Shown here: positions 37,005 through 55,737 of the stretch, piece after piece
Numbering within the stretch: position 1 is the first letter of the stretch
Layout: each line of letters opens with the position of its first letter
Source: Arcobacter lacus
GTDB lineage: Bacteria; Campylobacterota; Campylobacteria; Campylobacterales; Arcobacteraceae
DNA: 64,000 nt
Reading direction: 5' to 3'
NCBI RefSeq assembly: GCF_003063295.1
Contig: NZ_MUXF01000001.1
Coordinates: forward strand, 1 to 64,000
Translations under genes and position numbers: made by a program
The notes under the pieces: generated by a model
Database searches by the model: none
What the model was told of the DNA's origin: nothing
The model's input: only the letters and a program-made list of their open reading frames with translations

Positions 37005-39023
37005 TTAGAATTTCAAATTCATAGCAACGCTATATCTTCTACCATCTAAAATATAATCGTATCCATCGTCAGTTGTAACCTCTTTATTTTGTAGATTATA
37101 AACACCTGCTGTAAATTGTAAATTTTTGTCATATTTATAAACTGCACCTAAATCAACAAAAGTATAAGAAGGGTTTTTATCATCAGAATCTGTACTTGTT
37201 CCTCCTGTTTTACCTCTATAATTTGCTTGTGTCCACAACAATAATTTAGAAGTTGCATCCCAATCTAATCCAGCATTAAACATGTGTTTTGAAATATCAT
37301 TTAAAGGATTCCCTTTATTTGCTCCTGATTTTTGCTCACTATCAGTATATGTATAAGAGTGTCTATATTTTAAATTTTCTAAGATATAGTAATCTGTTGT
37401 AAGTTCAATACCTTTAATTTCTGCTTCATCAATATTTATAACATTTTTCCAACCATTTGAATTATGTGGCAAATTTGGATTATCTATATAAAATTGACTT
37501 CCTGCTGTTTCACTTCCCTCAAGTTTAGATGAACTACTTATTTTATCTTTAAACTCTGTTTGAAAAGCAACTAAACTTCCTGCCAAACCAATATCAGGAT
37601 TATCATAAGCAAATCCAACTTCATAATTTATACTTTTTTCTGGTTTTATATCAGGATTACCAATCGTACCACCACCTCGAGAAGTTGAACCAAAATCAAG
37701 AGCACCTTGTCTTAGAGTGGGAGCCTTATATCCAGTTGTAACTCCACCTTTTAAATTTAAATTATCTGTTAAACTATAAACAGCATAAGCTTTAGGACTA
37801 AACTCTCCACCAAAATCTTCATTATCATCATATCTTCCACTTAAAGTTAAAGCCAAATCATCAATTACATTCCAAGTATCTTCAGCAAATAAAGCATATT
37901 GATATCTTTCTAATGTTGAAATATCACCACCTGACAAACCATTAGTAGCACCATCTTCAAGTTTTTCTTTTTTATAATTTGCTCCTAATGTTAAAGAATT
38001 TGTATCAAAAAAATATGTACCTTGAGAGTTAGCAGTAACAGTTTGATTTTCTATACCATAACCTTTACTTCCTACTCTTGAAGGGTTTTTGTCTTTTTCA
38101 TATTGTAAATATGAATCAATTAAAAATTTACTCTCTTTAAATTGATGTGTCAAATTATAATTATATTTTTCTAATTTAGAAGTTGAGCCTTCTGTAGTAT
38201 CTGATATACTTTTTCCAGGAGTTGTTGTTCTTTCTTGAATTCTATAATCATAACCTGCTTTAATAACATTATTCTCATCAGGAGTAAAAATTAATTTTCC
38301 ACCTAAATTTTTTCTATCAAACTCTGGATCACTTCCCGATTTTGTTGATCCACCACCATTAAAATTACTTTCATCTTGATTTAAGAATGCACCTGTTAAT
38401 TGTAAAGATAAAAGTTTATCAATAAGTGGTGCATTAATAAATATATTTGTGTTTGTACTATCATCGTTTACTTTGTTAGAAGAATCTGCTTTAATATACT
38501 CCACATTTATACTTGCTGTTGCCTTATCAGAATGTTTTTTTGTGATAATGTTAATAACTCCACCCATAGCATCAGAACCATATAAAGATGATGCAGGTCC
38601 TCTTATAACTTCAATTCTTTCAATAGCTTCTAATGGTGGTAAGAAATTAATTGGTGCTCCTCCATAACTACCGTTAGGACTAAAAGCGTCATTTCCTTGC
38701 ATAGGTCTACCATCTATTAGATATAAAGTATATGAAGAACTCATCCCTCTAATCATTACAGATTGATTACTACCTCCTCCAGTAACATAAACACCTGGCA
38801 CATTCTTAAGTGCATCTGTGATATCCACATATGATTTCTTTTCAATTTCTTCTGCTGTTATAACAGAAATAGTTGCTGCTGCATCTGCAATATTTTGTTC
38901 ATATCCTGAAGCAGTTGTTACCACTTTTACATCATCTAAAGTTGTAGTTTCATTTGCACTTAAACAATGTGCCCCTGTAACTAATAATACAGCAAGAGAT
39001 TTTGCAATTTTTATTTTTTTCAT
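37005..39023 (-). CDS. TonB-dependent outer-membrane receptor
   Basis: 672 residues. After a signal peptide (SLAVLLVTGAHCLSANE) comes a plug domain with a TonB-box-like TTLDDVKVVTTASG, then VTDALKNVPGVYV-like sequence, SLYGSDAMGGVINIITKK, and a 22-strand barrel ending in YSVAMNLKF with terminal Phe. It imports ferric siderophores, haem or another metal complex, energised by ExbB-ExbD-TonB (genes at 54.2-55.7 kb). The region RGGGTIGNPDIKPEKS is the usual colicin-receptor signature. Substrate not deducible; a Fur-like box stands upstream. Confidence 0.93.
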   Translation of the reverse strand: MKKIKIAKSLAVLLVTGAHCLSANETTTLDDVKVVTTASGYEQNIADAAATISVITAEEIEKKSYVDITDALKNVPGVYVTGGGSNQSVMIRGMSSSYTLYLIDGRPMQGNDAFSPNGSYGGAPINFLPPLEAIERIEVIRGPASSLYGSDAMGGVINIITKKHSDKATASINVEYIKADSSNKVNDDSTNTNIFINAPLIDKLLSLQLTGAFLNQDESNFNGGGSTKSGSDPEFDRKNLGGKLIFTPDENNVIKAGYDYRIQERTTTPGKSISDTTEGSTSKLEKYNYNLTHQFKESKFLIDSYLQYEKDKNPSRVGSKGYGIENQTVTANSQGTYFFDTNSLTLGANYKKEKLEDGATNGLSGGDISTLERYQYALFAEDTWNVIDDLALTLSGRYDDNEDFGGEFSPKAYAVYSLTDNLNLKGGVTTGYKAPTLRQGALDFGSTSRGGGTIGNPDIKPEKSINYEVGFAYDNPDIGLAGSLVAFQTEFKDKISSSSKLEGSETAGSQFYIDNPNLPHNSNGWKNVINIDEAEIKGIELTTDYYILENLKYRHSYTYTDSEQKSGANKGNPLNDISKHMFNAGLDWDATSKLLLWTQANYRGKTGGTSTDSDDKNPSYTFVDLGAVYKYDKNLQFTAGVYNLQNKEVTTDDGYDYILDGRRYSVAMNLKF

Positions 39024-39241: not shown

Positions 39242-39260
39242 TGATAATAATTATTATATC
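39242..39260 (+). promoter_or_regulatory. Fur-like operator of the two-component system
   Basis: TGATAATAATTATTATATC contains the palindrome ATAATAATTATTAT. It lies 20 bases before the response regulator start, where bound Fur would block transcription. Confidence 0.5.
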
Positions 39261-44013: not shown

Positions 44014-44032
44014 AGTGATAATTAAAATCACT
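44014..44032. promoter_or_regulatory. Fur-family operator before the regulator gene
   Basis: AGTGATAATTAAAATCACT is a 19-base 9-1-9 inverted repeat with seven of nine pairs matching. It ends at the -35 position of a promoter whose -10 TAGAAT is at 44055-44060, suggesting autoregulation of the Fur-family gene at 44105. Confidence 0.55.
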
Positions 44033-44104: not shown

Positions 44105-44572
44105 GTGGAAAACAATCAAGAAATGGCATTTAACATCTTTTTAGATAGTTTTAAAAAAAACGTCTCAAAAGTTGGATTTAAAAATACAATTCAAAAAGAT
44201 TATATTTTAAAAACTCTATATCTTTCAGAAAAACATTTAACTGCTGAAGATATTTTGCTTGAAATAAAAGAAAAATATAATATGAGTGTTGGAATGGCTA
44301 CTATTTATAATGCTATAAAATTTTTTCATGAAATGCACCTTGTAAATCTACTAAATATTGGTGATGGAACTATTCGATATGAATTCAATCACGAAATTCA
44401 TCACGATCATTTAATTTGTACAAACTGCAGTTCAATTATTGAATTTACAGATGAAATTATAGAAGAACAACAAAATATAATTGCTAAAACATATGACTTT
44501 TATTTGAAAGAACATATAATGATACTTTATGGAATTTGTGAAAAATGCCAAAAAGTTGATAGTAATTCTTAA
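44105..44572 (+). CDS. Fur-family metalloregulator
   Basis: 155 residues from GTG 44105, chosen for the AAAAGG site eight bases before it; a TTG at 44069 would add 12 residues. The DNA-binding half has QKDYILKTLYLSEKHLTAEDIL and the recognition helix SVGMATIYNAI, where the common Fur ATVYR arginine is Asn. The metal half has HHDHLICTNC and CEKC, a structural zinc site with two CxxC pairs. It most likely senses iron. It may be the main Fur or a paralogue; the cluster that follows starts 62 bases downstream. Confidence 0.85.
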   Translation: MENNQEMAFNIFLDSFKKNVSKVGFKNTIQKDYILKTLYLSEKHLTAEDILLEIKEKYNMSVGMATIYNAIKFFHEMHLVNLLNIGDGTIRYEFNHEIHHDHLICTNCSSIIEFTDEIIEEQQNIIAKTYDFYLKEHIMILYGICEKCQKVDSNS

Positions 44573-44633
44573 TTTATAATAAGTTAAATTTAATATTAGA
44601 AAAGAAAAAATACGATTTAGAGAAAGGATTATT

Positions 44634-44948
44634 GTGATACAAACAGAAGATATTATAAAAATTGCTAGTTTTTTTTCTATTATTGCACATACTCCTGGAA
44701 GATTAAGAGTAAGAGTTAATCCAAAAATTACTCAAACTTCTGGAAATATAACTTTGAGCGATATAGAAGATTTACCAAATAAAATAGATGGAATAGAAAA
44801 TATTAAAATAAATAAAATTATTGCATCTGTTACTATTCATTATAACCCAGATATTTTCCAACCAAAACTTTGGGAAGATTTGGTTAAAAATGAAAATATT
44901 GAAGAGTTATCAATTTTAATAAATAAACTTGCAAAGGAGGTTATTTGA
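44634..44948 (+). CDS. HMA-like domain protein without metal cysteines
   Basis: 104 residues from GTG 44634 with AAAGGA just upstream. A hydrophobic N-terminal stretch (IIKIASFFSIIAHTP) leads into AHTPGRLRVRVNPKI and a ferredoxin-like beta-alpha-beta pattern that ends IASVTIHYNPD, the HMA_2-like fold. The CxxC of true HMA domains is missing and TPGRLR stands in its place. The same TPxRxR motif opens the P1B ATPase at 46605, so the two probably work together. It may correspond to the HMA-type protein of ferrosome clusters. Confidence 0.65.
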   Translation: MIQTEDIIKIASFFSIIAHTPGRLRVRVNPKITQTSGNITLSDIEDLPNKIDGIENIKINKIIASVTIHYNPDIFQPKLWEDLVKNENIEELSILINKLAKEVI

Positions 44949-45631
44949 TGAATGAAAATCTTGATGAACAACTTTTAATTAGTGCAAGAGTTGATATAAA
45001 TAGTCCTATTCCAATTAGAACACAAATTTTAAGAATAGCTGTTTATGATGAATTTAAAGCATATGAAACTTATTCAAAAATTATTGAAAAGTTTGGTTTA
45101 GTTCAACCTTTTGTAAATATAAAAGAGGCTGAAGCTATTCATTATTCTGCACTTATTCAATTAATGCAAAAATACAATATTGAAGTTCCTTTTAATAATT
45201 GGGCAACTAAAGTAGAAATACCAAATACTTTAATTGAGTGTTGCGAAATGGGAGTTGCAGCAGAGATAAATAATATTGCTATGTACAATAATCTATTATC
45301 TTATGCAACTGATACAGACGTAAGAGATGTTATATTTAGACTTCAAGCAGCTTCTTATAATAATCATTTACCAGCATTTAGAAATTGTGTTTTAACTCAT
45401 TACAATACTAGTGTAAACAATGGTGATTTTTCTCAAACAAATATAATGGAAAAATTAGGAGAATATCAAGTAATACTTGATGATATTATGTCTGGAAATA
45501 TTGATGAAAGTTCTATTTCACAAATTTTTTCAAAACTAAATATGTCTATGGTTAGTGGAGCAGCTTTTGGTGGTGCAATAATTGCACTTTTAAATAACTA
45601 TATTTCAAAACAAAATCAAGAAGAGGAGTAA
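44948..45631 (+). CDS. Membrane-anchored DUF2202 ferritin-like protein
   Basis: 227 residues from ATG 44948, with GGAGG seven bases upstream and overlap with the previous stop. A four-helix bundle with candidate di-iron ligands is seen: DEFKAYETY, EAEAIHYSAL, VAAEINNIAMYNNL and ASYNNHLPAF, the DUF2202 pattern. Near the C-terminus is a glycine-rich hydrophobic helix, MVSGAAFGGAIIALLNNY, that could anchor the protein in a membrane. It may oxidise or hold iron for the ATPase encoded downstream. Redox protection is an alternative role. Confidence 0.7.
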   Translation: MNENLDEQLLISARVDINSPIPIRTQILRIAVYDEFKAYETYSKIIEKFGLVQPFVNIKEAEAIHYSALIQLMQKYNIEVPFNNWATKVEIPNTLIECCEMGVAAEINNIAMYNNLLSYATDTDVRDVIFRLQAASYNNHLPAFRNCVLTHYNTSVNNGDFSQTNIMEKLGEYQVILDDIMSGNIDESSISQIFSKLNMSMVSGAAFGGAIIALLNNYISKQNQEEE

Positions 45632-45634
45632 ATT

Positions 45635-45889
45635 ATGGCTTTACCATTTCTATTAGGATTGGCTTTAGGTGCTGGTGCTGTTGTAGCTTATAACAAAAGT
45701 GATAAATTAAAAGATAAAACTTCAAAAATACTTGAAAAAACAAAAGATGGTCTTGAAGAGGTAAAAGAAAAAATTAATTCTACAAAAGAGACTATCAAAG
45801 AAAAATTTGAAAAAAAAGAAGAAAAAGCTGAACAAACAAAGACAAAAAGAAAATATGTAAGAAAACCAAAAGCTAAGGAAACAAAATAA
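45635..45889 (+). CDS. Small membrane protein with basic helical tail
   Basis: 84 residues. Residues 2-19 form one Gly/Ala-rich helix (ALPFLLGLALGAGAVVAY), followed by a long charged helix of Lys and Glu and a basic end KRKYVRKPKAKETK. The architecture is YtxH-like. Its stop overlaps the next start by one base. With the two following genes it makes a set of three small membrane proteins of similar type. Confidence 0.65.
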   Translation: MALPFLLGLALGAGAVVAYNKSDKLKDKTSKILEKTKDGLEEVKEKINSTKETIKEKFEKKEEKAEQTKTKRKYVRKPKAKETK

Positions 45890-46239
45890 TGAAAGATTTA
45901 ACAATCAACACAGGAACACCTAGAAATGTTTTAGGACATGTAATAAGTGGAGCAATTGCAAGTGCTGTTGTAAGTAGTGCAATTAACTATAAAAAAGTTC
46001 AAAGCAAACAAATTTCAAGAAATGATGCGATAAAAGATACAGTAAAAAGAACTTCTCAAGGTGCTATTGCAACTGGAAGTGCTATTGCAACTGCAAATTA
46101 TATTGGTCAAAATAGTTGGCTTAAAGCAATGACTGCTCTTAGTATTGGAGCTGCTGGAATTTATGCACTAGAAGTAATAGAAGAAAAAATTGAACAAAAA
46201 TATTTAACAAATCAAAATATAGAAATTGAAGGAGAATAA
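45889..46239 (+). CDS. Small glycine-zipper membrane protein
   Basis: 116 residues. Three weakly hydrophobic stretches rich in Gly, Ala and Ser are seen: VLGHVISGAIASAVVSSAI, GAIATGSAIATANYIG and ALSIGAAGIYALEVI. Repeated GxxxG/AxxxG spacing favours helix packing and curved or crowded membranes. The ends are charged. No family recognised. The start overlaps the previous stop and the next gene begins two bases after its end. Confidence 0.6.
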   Translation: MKDLTINTGTPRNVLGHVISGAIASAVVSSAINYKKVQSKQISRNDAIKDTVKRTSQGAIATGSAIATANYIGQNSWLKAMTALSIGAAGIYALEVIEEKIEQKYLTNQNIEIEGE

Positions 46240-46240
46240 A

Positions 46241-46603
46241 ATGGCTACAAATCAAAACCAAAATCAATATGATTTAAACATAGATAATACAAGAAATCAA
46301 AATGGACAAACAGGAATAAATATAAATCAAAATCCTTATTTAAATCAAAATGTTAACCAAACTACACAACAAACAGTACCAACAAATAATACAACAACAC
46401 AAAATGGATTTTTCAATGGTGATTTTGTAAAAGGTGCATTAATAGGTGCAGCAGTTACATATTTACTTACTAATAAAAATGCTCAAGAAACAATTTTTAA
46501 AGTTTTTGGAAAAGGAAGTGAACTTTTCTCTGCAGGAATGGAAGAGTTAAAAGAAAGATACGAAGACGCAAAAGCACAAATACAAGCACAACAAGAACAG
46601 TAA
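46241..46603 (+). CDS. N/Q-rich membrane protein
   Basis: 120 residues from ATG 46241 (MATNQNQNQYDLNI). The first 65 residues are dominated by Asn, Gln and Thr with almost no charge, a prion-like low-complexity tract. A helix FVKGALIGAAVTYLLTN (about 68-84) crosses the membrane, and a charged helical tail ELKERYEDAKAQIQAQQ follows, again YtxH-like. It ends one base before the P1B ATPase gene. A scaffold or condensate role is inference from composition only. Confidence 0.65.
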   Translation: MATNQNQNQYDLNIDNTRNQNGQTGININQNPYLNQNVNQTTQQTVPTNNTTTQNGFFNGDFVKGALIGAAVTYLLTNKNAQETIFKVFGKGSELFSAGMEELKERYEDAKAQIQAQQEQ

Positions 46604-46604
46604 A

Positions 46605-48716
46605 ATGAAAAATAAATTTGAAAAAGTACACCAAACTCCTTCAAGAGTTCGTTATAAATTTGCTTTATTAAAAGAGAAATTTATTGATGAAGATATTTTA
46701 AAAAACTATTTTCTTAAAATAGATGGTGTACAAAGTGTTAGAATAAATAAAAAAGCTTTTAGTATTATTTTTGAATTAGATAAAGATATTACAAATTCTT
46801 TAGAAAAAATTCTAAACTCTTTATCTGTTGAAGAATTATTAAAATCTTGTGAAAATGAAATGGCAAGTGTTTGCGTATCTTGTGTAAGTAGTGATGAACC
46901 ATCTATGAATAGTACTATTAGAGCAACTAGTGCATTAGTAGCTGAAAGATTTATTACAAATGATACTTTAAAGGCTGGTGTTACAACAGTAGCTTCTATT
47001 CCTTTATTAATTGAAGGTTCAAAAGAGTTATTAAATGAAGGATTAACTTCAAAAGTTTTAGAAAGTGCAGCCGTTGCAATTTCAATATATAGAAAAGACT
47101 ATTTAGCAGCAAATTCAACAAATGCAATGATTGAGCTTGGTGAATATATAGAAGAAACAACTGTACATAAAAGTGATGATTTATTAAAAGAGTTATCAAA
47201 ACCAAACGTTGAAGAAGCTTGGGTAGAGAAAAAAATTGATGGCAAAATAACTGAAATTTTAGTAAAAAGTGAAGATATCAAAGTTGGCGATATTGTTGTA
47301 GTTGGTGTTGGAAATACAATAGCTGTTGATGGTCATATAGTTGAAGGAAGTGGTAGCGTAAATCAAGTTTCTATGACAGGAGAAGCACAACCAGTTGTTA
47401 AATACAGAGGAGATAGAGTAATCTCTGGAACTATTGTTGAAGAAGGAAGATTTAGAATTTGGGCTGAACATGTTGGAGCAAATACAGCAACTCAAAGAAT
47501 AAAACACTACATAGAAAACTCTTTAAATGAAAAATCATCAGTTCAACTAAAAGCAAATCGTCTTGCTGATAAACTTGTTCCGGTAACATTGGGACTTGCT
47601 GGAGTTTCATATATTTTTACAAAAGATTTTGAAAGAGTAGCTTCAATATTGCAAGCTGATTATTCTTGTGCCTTAAAACTTGCAACTCCAGTTGCTTTTA
47701 AGTCAACTATTTCAAAAGCTGGTCATAATGGAATTATGATAAAAGGTGCAAAATCTATTGAAGCTTTAAGTAGCGCTGATACTTTTGTATTTGATAAAAC
47801 TGGAACTTTAACTGGTGGAGAGCTTGAAGTAATAAGTGTAGAATCATATAATCCCAAATGGACGGAAGATGAAATACTAAATCTTACTGCTTCAACAGAA
47901 GAACACTATTTTCATCCAGTAGCGGAAGCTGTTGTAAAAGCAGCAAAACAAAGAGGCTTTGTACATATGCATCATGAAGAAGTTGAATTTATAGTTGCAC
48001 ATGGAGTAAAAACTGAAGTTAATGGGAAATCTGTAATTATTGGAAGTCGTCATTTTTTAGAAGATGATGAAAAAATTGATTTTAGTGAACATAAAGCTAA
48101 TATTGAGAACTCATTAAAAGATGGAAAAACTTTACTTTATGTTGGTTATGATGGAAAATTATTAGGAACTATTGGACTTTCTGATGAGTTAAGATCTAAT
48201 GCTAAAGAATCTATTTCAAGACTAAAAAAACTTGGTGTAAAAGAGATAATTATGCTAACTGGTGATACAAAAGAAAAAGCACATAGAATTGCAAAAGAGT
48301 TAGGAATAGACGAAGTAAGAGCAGAACTTTTACCTCAAGACAAAGCAAGCATAGTAAAAGAATTTATGCTTAAAGGTAAAAAAGTTGCATTTGTAGGAGA
48401 TGGAATAAATGATGCTCCTGCTTTAATTTCAGCTCATGTTGGTATTTCTATGAGTAGAGGTGCAGATATAGCAAAAGCAACTGCTGATATTAGTTTATTA
48501 AAAGATGATATAGCAGCAGTTGTTGAAGCAAAAGAGTATGCAAATAAAACAATGAATTTGATAAATAACAATTTCAATGCAACAGTTGGTATAAACTCTG
48601 CTATTTTAGCAGGAGCAACATTTGGAGTGTTTTCTCCAATAGTTACAGCAGTACTTCACAATGGTACAACAATTGGTTTATTGTTAAATTCAATAAAAGG
48701 TGTAAATATTAAATAA
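46605..48716 (+). CDS. P1B-type metal ATPase, possible FezB (P1B-6) homologue
   Basis: 703 residues. The N-terminal domain (about 1-80) has VHQTPSRVRYKF, HMA-like without CxxC. The actuator motif is TGEA at 258-261 (usual TGES). The transport helix has Tyr353-Ser354-Cys355 followed by ALKLATP, where most P1B pumps have Cys-Pro-Cys. The phosphorylation site DKTGTLTGG begins at Asp397, His437-Pro438 is the P1B His-Pro motif, and GDGINDAP begins at Gly598. The core is intact, so it should pump a metal with ATP. The Cys-only transport motif and neighbours suggest the iron-linked P1B-6 class of ferrosomes. Confidence 0.8.
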   Translation: MKNKFEKVHQTPSRVRYKFALLKEKFIDEDILKNYFLKIDGVQSVRINKKAFSIIFELDKDITNSLEKILNSLSVEELLKSCENEMASVCVSCVSSDEPSMNSTIRATSALVAERFITNDTLKAGVTTVASIPLLIEGSKELLNEGLTSKVLESAAVAISIYRKDYLAANSTNAMIELGEYIEETTVHKSDDLLKELSKPNVEEAWVEKKIDGKITEILVKSEDIKVGDIVVVGVGNTIAVDGHIVEGSGSVNQVSMTGEAQPVVKYRGDRVISGTIVEEGRFRIWAEHVGANTATQRIKHYIENSLNEKSSVQLKANRLADKLVPVTLGLAGVSYIFTKDFERVASILQADYSCALKLATPVAFKSTISKAGHNGIMIKGAKSIEALSSADTFVFDKTGTLTGGELEVISVESYNPKWTEDEILNLTASTEEHYFHPVAEAVVKAAKQRGFVHMHHEEVEFIVAHGVKTEVNGKSVIIGSRHFLEDDEKIDFSEHKANIENSLKDGKTLLYVGYDGKLLGTIGLSDELRSNAKESISRLKKLGVKEIIMLTGDTKEKAHRIAKELGIDEVRAELLPQDKASIVKEFMLKGKKVAFVGDGINDAPALISAHVGISMSRGADIAKATADISLLKDDIAAVVEAKEYANKTMNLINNNFNATVGINSAILAGATFGVFSPIVTAVLHNGTTIGLLLNSIKGVNIK

Positions 48717-48768
48717 AAATTCCAATAATAGTTATCAGTTCTATTTAAGTTTTTCTTGATAGAATTTC

Positions 48769-48781
48769 GATAATTATTATC
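48769..48781. promoter_or_regulatory. Fur-like operator, GATAATTATTATC
   Basis: This 13-mer, identical to the one at 54194-54206, lies just after a TAGAAT -10 candidate (48759-48764) and 12 bases before the small gene at 48794. Confidence 0.55.
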
Positions 48782-48793
48782 AAAGGAATTATT

Positions 48794-48913
48794 ATGCCAA
48801 TATTATTACCAATTGCAACTGCTTTAACAGCAATTTTAACAATTAAAACAGTAAATAAAACTATAAAAACAGTAGAAAGAAGAAAAAAAAGGAACCAAAG
48901 ATATGAAATTTGA
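48794..48913 (+). CDS. Small membrane protein, 39 aa
   Basis: ATG 48794 with CAAAGGAATT upstream; the frame ends TGA at 48911-48913. Residues 2-18 (PILLPIATALTAILTIK) are hydrophobic and the tail TVERRKKRNQRYEI is basic. It overlaps the next gene by 11 bases. The separate Fur-like operator makes this a metal-regulated unit apart from the ATPase operon. Too short to classify. Confidence 0.55.
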   Translation: MPILLPIATALTAILTIKTVNKTIKTVERRKKRNQRYEI

Positions 48914-49133
48914 TTTAGAAATGCAAAAAGAAGTTGCTAAAATAGGAATGACTGCAACGCTAGGTGCAACAGTTGTAACTTCTATGTTTATGAAAAATAG
49001 TCTTGCTAAAAAAACTCATATTGTTGCTGGTGTTGCATTATGTGGTTTTGCTTTATGGCATCATATGCTTTATCAACCTAAAACATCTAAAAAATTTAAA
49101 AAATCAAAAGAAGAAAATCTACAATTAAATTAA
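48903..49133 (+). CDS. Small two-helix membrane protein, 76 aa
   Basis: 76 residues with two hydrophobic helices, GMTATLGATVVTSMFM (about 13-28) and HIVAGVALCGFALWHHMLY (about 35-54), and a basic C-terminus KTSKKFKKSKEEN. Two histidines (LWHHML) at the membrane edge could bind metal or haem, but this is speculative. It is translationally coupled to the 39-residue gene before it. Confidence 0.6.
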   Translation: MKFDLEMQKEVAKIGMTATLGATVVTSMFMKNSLAKKTHIVAGVALCGFALWHHMLYQPKTSKKFKKSKEENLQLN

Positions 49134-49168
49134 TGTTTTTAAATTCATTTTAAGTTTCTTTATATTAC

Positions 49169-49201: not shown

Positions 49202-49681
49202 ATGTCTAATAACTTTCTCTTAGACAAAAATATAAACAAACAGATTGTTTCAAATATATTTTCATCATTAATTACAGGTGAAAAATGGGTTATGTTGATT
49301 GAAATGTTTAGATTAAAAATTTTAGACATAAATGCTAGAGATTGTAAAGGAAGAAATGCTTTATATTGGGCAATTTTAAAAAATAAAACAGATGTAATCA
49401 AAGAATTAATAGAATTAGATATAAGTACAGAAGTATCTCCAAACTTCTTAGCAATGAATTTTGCAGTTTATAATGACAATATAAAAGTTATGAAATGTTT
49501 AAAGAATTGTGGTTTGAATATCAATGTAATTGATGATATTAATTCTACTCCATTAATTTATGCAATTTTATATAACAAACAAAATAGTATAAAGTATTTA
49601 ATTGAAAATGGTGCAAACTTAGAACACGAAGATTTTTTGGGGAATAGCCCATCAAATTTATTAAAAAGTTTAAATAAATAG
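49202..49681 (+). CDS. Ankyrin-repeat protein
   Basis: 159 residues. Three ankyrin repeats can be read: DCKGRNALYWAILKNKTDVIKEL, then FLAMNFAVYNDNIKVM and NSTPLIYAILYNKQNSIKYL, ending with a partial GANLEHEDFLGNSP. No signal peptide. Ankyrin proteins bind other proteins; in bacteria some sit beside catalase or metal genes. Here the upstream Fur-like box links it to iron. Partner unknown. Confidence 0.8.
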   Translation: MSNNFLLDKNINKQIVSNIFSSLITGEKWVMLIEMFRLKILDINARDCKGRNALYWAILKNKTDVIKELIELDISTEVSPNFLAMNFAVYNDNIKVMKCLKNCGLNINVIDDINSTPLIYAILYNKQNSIKYLIENGANLEHEDFLGNSPSNLLKSLNK

Positions 49682-54090: not shown

Positions 54091-54193
54091 ATTGTTTTCC
54101 TTGTATTTTAATTAGTGAAGATTTACTGGTGAAATTTTACATAATCTCTTTTAATGATTATTTAACAAATTTTTAATTTTTTCTTACAATTAA

Positions 54194-54247: not shown

Positions 54248-54676
54248 ATGGAAAATATTGAAACGTTACAACATTTAGTTGATTATGGAGTTATCGTTCT
54301 ACTTGTAATTATGAGTTTTATAGCTGTTTTATTTTTTGTTGAAAGAATCATTTTTTATAGAAATATAGATATAAAATCTTATAAAAACAAAAAACACTTA
54401 GACATTGCATTAACAAAACACTTAACAATTATTGGAACTATTGCTTCTAATTCACCATATATTGGTTTACTTGGAACTGTTTTAGCAATTATGCTTACGT
54501 TTATGAATATGGGAAATGGTGACATAGAAGCTGCAAAAATTATGGAATCTTTAGCATTAGCATTAAAAGCAACTGCTGTTGGTCTTGTTGTTGCAATTAT
54601 TTCTATGGTATTTTATAATATATTAAGTAGATATGTAGAAGTTACGGAGAGTTTATATGAAGCTGAAGAAATATGA
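54248..54676 (+). CDS. exbB: ExbB-type proton channel subunit
   Basis: 142 residues, the short form of ExbB. Three membrane helices are visible: about 13-35, 60-85 (IIGTIASNSPYIGLLGTVLAIML) and 100-130 (LKATAVGLVVAIISMVFY). It uses the proton gradient to drive TonB together with ExbD. Its end overlaps exbD by 20 bases. Confidence 0.93.
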   Translation: MENIETLQHLVDYGVIVLLVIMSFIAVLFFVERIIFYRNIDIKSYKNKKHLDIALTKHLTIIGTIASNSPYIGLLGTVLAIMLTFMNMGNGDIEAAKIMESLALALKATAVGLVVAIISMVFYNILSRYVEVTESLYEAEEI

Positions 54677-55034
54677 TTCAATAAATGTTATTCCATTCAT
54701 TGATGTATTACTTGTACTTTTAGCTATAGTTTTATTAACTTCAACTTTTATTACAAGAGGTATTATTCCAATTTCATTACCAAATGCTTCAAATGCAGAT
54801 AATTTAAAACCTGATAAAGAGGTAATACTTGTAATTCAAGAAGATGGTCAATTAATGATTGAAGATAGAGTTGCTACTTTAGAAAGTATTGAAAGTGAAA
54901 TTTTACAAAAAACTAAAGAGACACCAATTCACATAAACACAGATAAAAATACGAGATTCGAATCATTCGTACAAGTACTTGATATGCTAAAAAAGAATCA
55001 ATATTCTAATGTATCAATAGTAACAAAAAAGTGA
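54657..55034 (+). CDS. exbD: ExbD-type proton channel subunit
   Basis: 125 residues. The single membrane helix holds the essential aspartate in NVIPFIDVLLVLLAIVLL (Asp about 16), followed by the periplasmic domain (LIVIQEDGQL-like sequence and PIHINTDKNTRFE). Starts inside exbB and precedes tonB by seven bases. Confidence 0.94.
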   Translation: MKLKKYDSINVIPFIDVLLVLLAIVLLTSTFITRGIIPISLPNASNADNLKPDKEVILVIQEDGQLMIEDRVATLESIESEILQKTKETPIHINTDKNTRFESFVQVLDMLKKNQYSNVSIVTKK

Positions 55035-55041
55035 TAAGAAG

Positions 55042-55737
55042 ATGAAAAGATATTTAAACTCTTTTTTTATTACAAGTGGTATTTATTCTATTGCAGCTTT
55101 TTTTCTATTATTTGTATTTGCTGATATTTTTGTTACACCACCAGCAAAAGAGGAAGTAGTTACAAAAATATCATTAAATAGTGTATCAATCGTTGAGCCT
55201 CAGCCAGTTAGTGAACCAGAACCAACACCGCCAGAGCCTGAACCTGAGCCAATAGTAGAAAAACCAACTCCAATAAAAAAGAAACATGATAAACCAAAAA
55301 AAGAACATAAAGAACATCATAAGAAACATCATGAAAAGCCTATTGAAAAAATTGTAGAAAAAAAACATGAAGATGTTAAAGAAGTTGCAAATATTCAACC
55401 AACAGAACAAGTATCAGCTCCAACTATCAACCAAAATCAAATTGATAGTATAGAAGCAAAATACTTAGCAAAAGTAAGAGCTACTGTTGAAAAGAATAAA
55501 GTCTATCCAAAGGCTGCAAAAAGATTAAATCAAACAGGAAAAGTTCATGTTAATTTTGATATTTTGAAAAATGGTGAAATTAAAAATGTTAAAGTTTTAG
55601 GTAAATCTTCGTTTGAAAAACTTGATGAAGCTTCTATTGAACTTCTAATTAAAATAAGCAATTTCGATGAAATTCCAGAAGAATTGAAAAAAAGTGTTTG
55701 GAATGTTACTATTCCAATAGACTATCAAATAAATTAA
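55042..55737 (+). CDS. tonB: TonB energy transducer with His/Lys-rich linker
   Basis: 231 residues. N-terminal anchor helix (SGIYSIAAFFLLFVFADIF), a Pro-Glu segment EPEPTPPEPEPEP, then a Lys/His linker KEHKEHHKKHHEKP, and the C-terminal TonB domain (about 140-231) with KVYPKAAKRLNQTGKVHVNF. It spans the periplasm and pulls on the TonB box of receptors such as the one at 37005. The linker has at least ten histidines, which could bind metal. Confidence 0.93.
   Translation: MKRYLNSFFITSGIYSIAAFFLLFVFADIFVTPPAKEEVVTKISLNSVSIVEPQPVSEPEPTPPEPEPEPIVEKPTPIKKKHDKPKKEHKEHHKKHHEKPIEKIVEKKHEDVKEVANIQPTEQVSAPTINQNQIDSIEAKYLAKVRATVEKNKVYPKAAKRLNQTGKVHVNFDILKNGEIKNVKVLGKSSFEKLDEASIELLIKISNFDEIPEELKKSVWNVTIPIDYQIN

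Follow-up and report, generated by a model that had tools for sequence, protein, structure and literature searches.

A probable Fur-controlled, ferrosome-type (fez) gene cluster in Arcobacter lacus with a ferritin-like head on one membrane protein

Introduction

Does a compact run of genes next to a Fur-family regulator gene in Arcobacter lacus belong to a ferrosome system? Ferrosomes are recently found, membrane-bound bacterial organelles for iron storage that are known from few model species. We analyzed a 64,000-nt window of the forward strand (assembly GCF_003063295.1, contig NZ_MUXF01000001.1), in which a preliminary description based on the letters of the DNA had singled out six genes at 44634-48716 as a candidate fez cluster. 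Our analysis indicates that the locus is very probably a ferrosome (fez-type) cluster under the control of Fur, of a Campylobacterota type that has a ferritin-like head on one of its membrane proteins. This conclusion draws on gene content, gene order, motifs, fold and regulatory boxes, all of them read from sequence.

Results

Motifs and phylogeny of the cluster ATPase

FezB is called a P1B-6 ATPase in the literature. The ATPase gene that closes the six-gene run had been described as encoding a P1B pump with a non-CPC transport site, and this is borne out by its fourth transmembrane segment (TM4), which reads DYSCALKLATP. TM6 contains the sequence LHNGTT, and the corresponding HNG[TS]T motif is found near the C-terminus in 66 of the 71 ATPases that we collected for their D[YF][SA]C[AP] motif but in none of 87 other pumps. 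A CxxC (CVSC, residues ~89-92) directly follows the N-terminal HMA_2 domain of the cluster ATPase; 15 of the 71 FezB-type pumps have a CxxC at this point, and all 15 come from Arcobacteraceae-type loci.

The preliminary description had stated that a fez assignment should fall if the ATPase clearly grouped among exporters of Cu, Zn or Co, and it did not group with them. In a quick IQ-TREE phylogeny, computed without bootstrap and with long-branch rows among the other pumps, all 39 sampled SC(A/P)-motif ATPases formed one clade (Shimodaira-Hasegawa-like approximate likelihood ratio test, SH-aLRT, 98) that held no CPC, CPH or CPG pumps. This clade adjoins a cyanobacterial/Deinococcus group with the motif DFGTGIR. 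From its sequence, the cluster ATPase is predicted to be of the FezB/P1B-6 type and not a Cu/Zn/Co exporter, where the name P1B-6 is taken from the literature. A review lists P1B-6 ATPases under Fe(II) (PMC7558416).

In nine Campylobacterota loci (L140, L142, L144, L147, L152, L153, L156, L157 and L163), the HMA gene is directly preceded by a gene for another P1B ATPase, whose motif is MSCPC(A/S)T and whose N-terminus is HMA_2-like. These pumps form a separate clade of their own in the ATPase tree. No copy of this type was present among the P1B matches of the A. lacus genome, which besides the cluster ATPase number only three, at 30-35% identity. One further genome (G016) carries the cluster ATPase in two copies.

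Conservation of the cluster

The ATPase was present in 64 of 104 genomes sampled from the family and in 135 of 397 from the phylum. Of 36 loci from across Campylobacterota, 31 share the gene order HMA, ferritin-like, 84-amino-acid (aa), MamC-like, YtxH-like and ATPase, and median gaps between the cluster genes in Campylobacterota loci range from -4 to +3 bases. Because order and tight spacing are kept in these loci and the ATPase is widespread, the cluster genes are more than chance open reading frames (ORFs). In A. lacus, all of the ORFs lie where they had been placed, and the six genes from 44634 to 48716 are indeed packed end to end (Table 1). The same order is also found in a gammaproteobacterial metagenome-assembled genome (MAG; L061) and in Pseudothauera (L054), and plasmid CP129951.1 of Arcobacter sp. 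DSM 115972 (L049) carries the entire ferritin-headed cluster together with a fezC-like gene. A tyrosine recombinase gene lies a few kb from this plasmid-borne cluster.

Related clusters in which the ferritin head is missing were found in Azospirillum, Vibrio, Rhodomicrobium, a phototroph with a PufC-type reaction centre (G563) and a Desulfarculaceae MAG. The Azospirillum cluster consists of two HMA-type genes, a small gene and the MamC-like, YtxH-like and ATPase genes. In Vibrio and its order, a divergent HMA_2 gene is followed by HMA_2, long YtxH-like, MamC-like, YtxH-like and ATPase genes, and the phototroph genome holds eight genes of such a cluster. The Desulfarculaceae MAG has genes for Gly/Pro/Met-rich, MamC-like, YtxH-like and FezC-like proteins and the ATPase, followed by a 242-aa ORF.

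The FezC-like protein and the extent of the cluster

A 2024 study (PMC11334425) identified FezC as a haem b cytochrome that is DUF4405-like and has conserved histidines. The product of the gene at 48903-49133 bears the marks of FezC: it is a predicted DUF4405-like membrane protein with putative haem-ligand histidines. The two histidines in LHI..G.....WHH are kept by this protein and nearly all of its relatives. The protein matches DUF4405 weakly (E 0.1, against 0.0049 for a fusion protein of Hahella). Azospirillum, Hahella and Duodenibacillus encode the FezC-like hairpin as a fusion with HMA_2, and these fusions tie hairpin, HMA_2 and ATPase into one system. In several Campylobacterota and in L061 the hairpin is fused instead to a SpoIIAA-like domain, with a Pfam score of 68.1 bits for L061 and by alignment for L147, L152 and L153.

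The preliminary description had ended the cluster with the ATPase gene. Its six genes stand, and it had missed a 39-aa ORF, the FezC-like gene and the Fur boxes; with these, we take the functional unit to span ~44105-49133. A small ankyrin-repeat protein is encoded directly downstream of the fezC-like gene, at 49202-49681, and a weak site resembling a Fur box lies at 49168.

Candidate Fur boxes

The Fur-family gene at the start of the unit is a paralogue, one of four Fur-family genes above cut-off in the A. lacus genome. Within the 64-kb window, Fur boxes were not more frequent than chance (20 found, 21.3 expected), so that the candidate box upstream of this gene is weak on its own; a promoter scan likewise gave a chance-level result. 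We therefore compared related loci, using shuffles that preserved single-base composition only, and since the shuffles are simple and some loci are close relatives, the following figures are a guide. Upstream of the HMA gene, 14 of 38 loci have a site with at most two mismatches (0.46 expected), and A. lacus has three. Between the ATPase and fezC-like genes, 6 of 27 intergenic regions contain a perfect box and 10 of 27 a box with at most one mismatch, where 0.00 were expected.

The window also supplies natural positive controls. A near-identical box at 54193 precedes exbB-exbD-tonB, and another at 39242 lies between the genes for a TonB receptor and a response regulator. The exbB/exbD-like genes and tonB occupy 54249-55737, the names exbB and exbD being given from the sequence and the adjoining tonB; the TonB-dependent receptor is encoded at 37005-39023, with a PepSY_TM protein nearby. 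Together they make up an iron-uptake neighbourhood. Some of the other clusters have FeoA-type genes or TonB receptors nearby. The conserved boxes and the adjoining Fur paralogue place the A. lacus cluster under predicted Fur/iron control.

The ferritin-like head and its membrane anchor

The first two proteins of the cluster had been described as an HMA-like protein without metal cysteines and a DUF2202 ferritin-like protein with a C-terminal membrane part. Both descriptions hold. The 44634-44948 product has no Cys at all, and an AlphaFold2 model gives it strands and helices at a predicted local distance difference test (pLDDT) score of 78. The ferritin-like protein exceeds the PF09968 cut-off (Table 1), with the head at about residues 20-160 and the membrane anchor at about 165-227.

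The AlphaFold2 model of the ferritin-like protein, built from three sequences, has a pLDDT of 74 overall, ~90 over the helices and below 50 at the C-terminus. It matches MJ0754 (Z 14.6, 143 residues) and bacterioferritins (Z ~14) over 133-143 residues, at values close to the 13-14 that helical bundles may reach from arrangement alone. A profile search also finds MJ0754 by sequence (E 1.6e-7), with the E, ExxH, E and NH elements aligned, so that this protein is the best match in both sequence and fold. By this model, the head is predicted to have the four-helix ferritin fold. By spacing and alignment, five of the six expected ferroxidase ligands have candidates in E35, E62, H65, E106 and H140, which are shared with MJ0754. 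All five are invariant in 11 sequences that come from Arcobacteraceae, related families and one gammaproteobacterial and one betaproteobacterial member, with identity down to 28%. In a wider set of 35 sequences, E107 is kept in 100%, and H66 and H141 in 80% (these are E106, H65 and H140 counted with the leading Met); most ligands are lost in Campylobacter/Helicobacter-type members.

The C-terminus of the protein (DIMSGNIDESSISQIFSKLNMSMVSGAAFGGAIIALLNN) aligns over 48 columns with the C-terminus of a Gly/Pro/His-rich protein from the alpha- and gammaproteobacterial clusters. This hhalign alignment has a probability of 93.9 and a score of 39.9, against a maximum of 19.7 in 60 column shuffles and 16.5 for the reversed profile, and the pre-helix part alone scores 17.2 (shuffle maximum 11.2). 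The membrane helix by itself resembles the helices of the 84-aa and YtxH-like proteins, and none of the anchor glycines varies among 35 sequences. A Desulfarculaceae protein forms a bridge, having a Gly/Pro/Met-rich head followed by NDIMNGNADPSTLAKFLDTSDPRFWKGLLVGAALTFVLTN; its match to the ferritin-family profile is at 1e-13, a value from an iterative profile that had itself drawn in that sequence. Ferritin-family matches in genomes G540, G698, G657 and G749 were rejected as ferritins: they are Gly/Pro-rich proteins with the shared anchor, and it was these that led to the finding of a head swap. Because the anchors are homologous, we place the ferritin-like domain where the other clusters have a disordered head. 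It seems, as far as these alignments go, to have replaced that head on a shared anchor, the direction of exchange being our inference. One membrane module thus appears to be common to several cluster proteins, whose cytosolic parts differ, and one of these parts is here a ferritin domain.

Small membrane proteins and the relation to MamC

In the preliminary description, the ferritin-like protein and the small N/Q-rich and zipper proteins were all taken to be new parts. The ferritin-like protein is indeed unusual. The small proteins have homologues next to the same ATPase in other phyla and hence are not new: in Duodenibacillus and Mailhella, the 84-aa profile also finds the small gene that immediately precedes the ATPase gene, and Alpha-, Gamma- and Desulfo-type loci have homologues of the YtxH-like protein beside theirs. 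Small GxxxG membrane proteins are co-encoded with the FezB-type ATPase, and what sets this lineage apart is the ferritin-like head alone.

The MamC profile (NF038051) matches the 45889-46239 protein at 29.9 bits over 86 residues, which does not reach the equivalog cut-off of 100 bits. The profile matches 14 of 16 homologues of this protein (best 5.6e-15) and nothing in 14 control genomes, and its sole match in the A. lacus genome is the cluster protein. By this profile evidence, the protein is a distant MamC homologue outside the MamC equivalog.

Table 1. Features of the A. lacus cluster, by position in the window.
Feature	Coordinates	Strand	Evidence and remarks
Candidate Fur box, 2 mismatches to TGATAATNATTATCA	44016..44030	+	Upstream of the Fur-family gene
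Fur-family regulator	44105..44572	+	PF01475, 104.9 bits; in many related loci adjacent or a few kb away
HMA_2-like protein, HTPGRLRVRV motif	44634..44948	+	PF19991 (HMA_2), 26.7 bits, slightly below the cut-off of 30; conserved first cluster gene
Ferritin-like (DUF2202) head with C-terminal fez-type membrane anchor	44948..45631	+	PF09968, 24.1 bits (cut-off 22)
84-aa protein with N-terminal GxxxG membrane helix and Lys/Glu-rich tail	45635..45889	+	Profile and locus comparison
MamC-like two-helix membrane protein, 116 aa	45889..46239	+	NF038051, 29.9 bits, E 5e-7
YtxH-like protein with N/Q-rich head, GxxxG membrane helix and amphipathic C-terminus	46241..46603	+	Weak YtxH match, E 0.0043
Predicted FezB-type P1B ATPase with N-terminal HMA_2 domain	46605..48716	+	TIGR01525, 494 bits
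Fur box CGATAATTATTATCA	48768..48782	+	Precedes the second transcription unit
39-aa ORF (single hydrophobic segment, basic tail) that overlaps the start of the following gene	48794..48913	+	Read directly from the sequence
FezC-like two-helix membrane protein, 76 aa, two conserved histidines	48903..49133	+	Weak DUF4405 match, family alignment

Discussion

A model for the cluster

The ferrosome-like identity first suggested from motifs and context is supported by the ATPase clade, the FezC-like protein, the HMA_2 domains and the conserved Fur boxes. A working model follows. Under iron starvation, Fur would leave the boxes that we read in the sequence, and the proteins would be made. The MamC-like, YtxH-like and 84-aa GxxxG proteins may pack into the vesicle membrane and shape it, and steering the pump or passing on metal could fall to the HMA_2 protein and to the HMA_2 domain within the ATPase. 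When iron returns, the pump, judged by its family, would move Fe(II) into the vesicle. The FezC-like di-histidine protein may bind haem, as is known for another FezC, and transfer electrons across the membrane, so that iron would be stored oxidised and released reduced. The ferritin-like head, tethered at the cytosolic face, might by its fold and ligands collect or oxidise iron beside the pump. We tentatively propose a hybrid store, which we consider possible and somewhat short of probable, in which this domain, tethered at the ferrosome surface, oxidises or collects iron and supplies it to the FezB-type pump, making protein and lipid storage one device, and in which ferrosomes and magnetosomes have a MamC-type protein in common by descent.

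Alternative explanations

Several points weigh against the ferrosome interpretation and its iron chemistry. The proven FezB proteins of D. magneticus, R. palustris, S. putrefaciens and C. difficile are missing from our tree; their nearest proxies, from phototroph G563 and Mailhella, both fall within the SC(A/P) clade. In this lineage the organelle, its iron and its haem are predictions from the genes. The sixth ferroxidase position, the Glu of the second ExxH, is Tyr in the A. lacus protein, which makes the putative ferroxidase site near-complete yet unproven, and the decay of ligands in Helicobacter/Campylobacter-like relatives means that the head may lack iron chemistry in some lineages. The head could be a structural leftover or spacer within a true fez cluster, with only the anchor mattering. 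We regard this as a serious possibility that still falls below an even chance: the anchor glycines are invariant while two of the ligand histidines are not, and the same anchor bears a disordered head in other phyla, but the invariance of five ligands in 11 sequences indicates selection on the site.

The locus might also be a plain export or detoxification operon for Fe(II) (or Fe/Mn), with the ATPase in the cell membrane, metal moving outward and no organelle. P1B ATPases are mostly exporters (PMC7558416), the vesicle is a prediction from the gene set, and nine related loci have a second P1B pump directly upstream. However, an exporter needs no GxxxG, FezC-like or MamC-like proteins, yet these accompany the ATPase across phyla, and Fur boxes imply expression under iron starvation, the opposite of what detoxification would need. 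We consider export improbable. A pump for Cu, Zn or Co is more improbable still, and very much so; it could be argued from the best-scoring profiles, which are generic P-type families (TIGR01525, CadA, CopA), but the metal site is non-CPC/SPC, the clade stands apart from CPC/CPH pumps, the HMA partner has no metal-binding Cys, and Fur boxes are present.

Significance

If the ferrosome interpretation is correct, then Campylobacterota, a phylum with many animal-associated members, commonly carry such clusters (135 of 397 genomes sampled), and a protein with a swappable head would provide a concrete handle on iron delivery to the organelle. The relation to MamC makes a shared origin of ferrosome and magnetosome membrane proteins testable, and a ferritin-like head on a ferrosome membrane protein may join two known bacterial routes of iron storage. 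By title and abstract, none of the ferrosome papers that we surveyed concerns Arcobacter; earlier papers or supplements may list Campylobacterota clusters.

Comparison with known systems

Grant et al. (2022, Nature 606:160) reportedly described six-gene fez operons in Rhodopseudomonas palustris (RPA2333-2338) and Shewanella putrefaciens, and these operons are very probably of the same kind as the A. lacus cluster. In strain CGA009 of R. palustris, six fez genes give rise to ferrosomes (PMC12016538). Our comparison was with the alpha- and gammaproteobacterial clusters that we found: these have HMA_2, MamC-like and YtxH-like proteins with the ATPase, as in A. lacus, whereas their head is disordered and Gly/Pro/His-rich where that of A. 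lacus is ferritin-like.

The Fez set of Desulfovibrio magneticus consists of three proteins: FezB, FezC and a third. Mailhella, of the Desulfovibrionaceae, and Duodenibacillus resemble it in having a small GxxxG gene, an ATPase with the SCA motif and an HMA_2 gene. HMA_2 is fused to the FezC-like hairpin in Duodenibacillus but encoded separately in A. lacus, which has the MamC-like, YtxH-like and ferritin-like proteins in addition to a set of this type.

Outside the fez systems, MJ0754 (DUF2202; PDB 3q4n/3q4r) has the E, ExxH, E, NH pattern in common with the A. lacus head, to which A. lacus adds the fez-type anchor. Magnetosome MamC is weakly homologous to the cluster protein, and no magnetosome genes besides the MamC-like one were seen.

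Clostridioides difficile requires FezA and FezB, which are repressed by Fur (PMC12574912). Its small membrane protein and transporter under Fur parallel those of A. lacus, in a gene set that is much smaller. The A. lacus cluster bears the same marks as the R. palustris and C. difficile fez sets, and we read it as fez-type.

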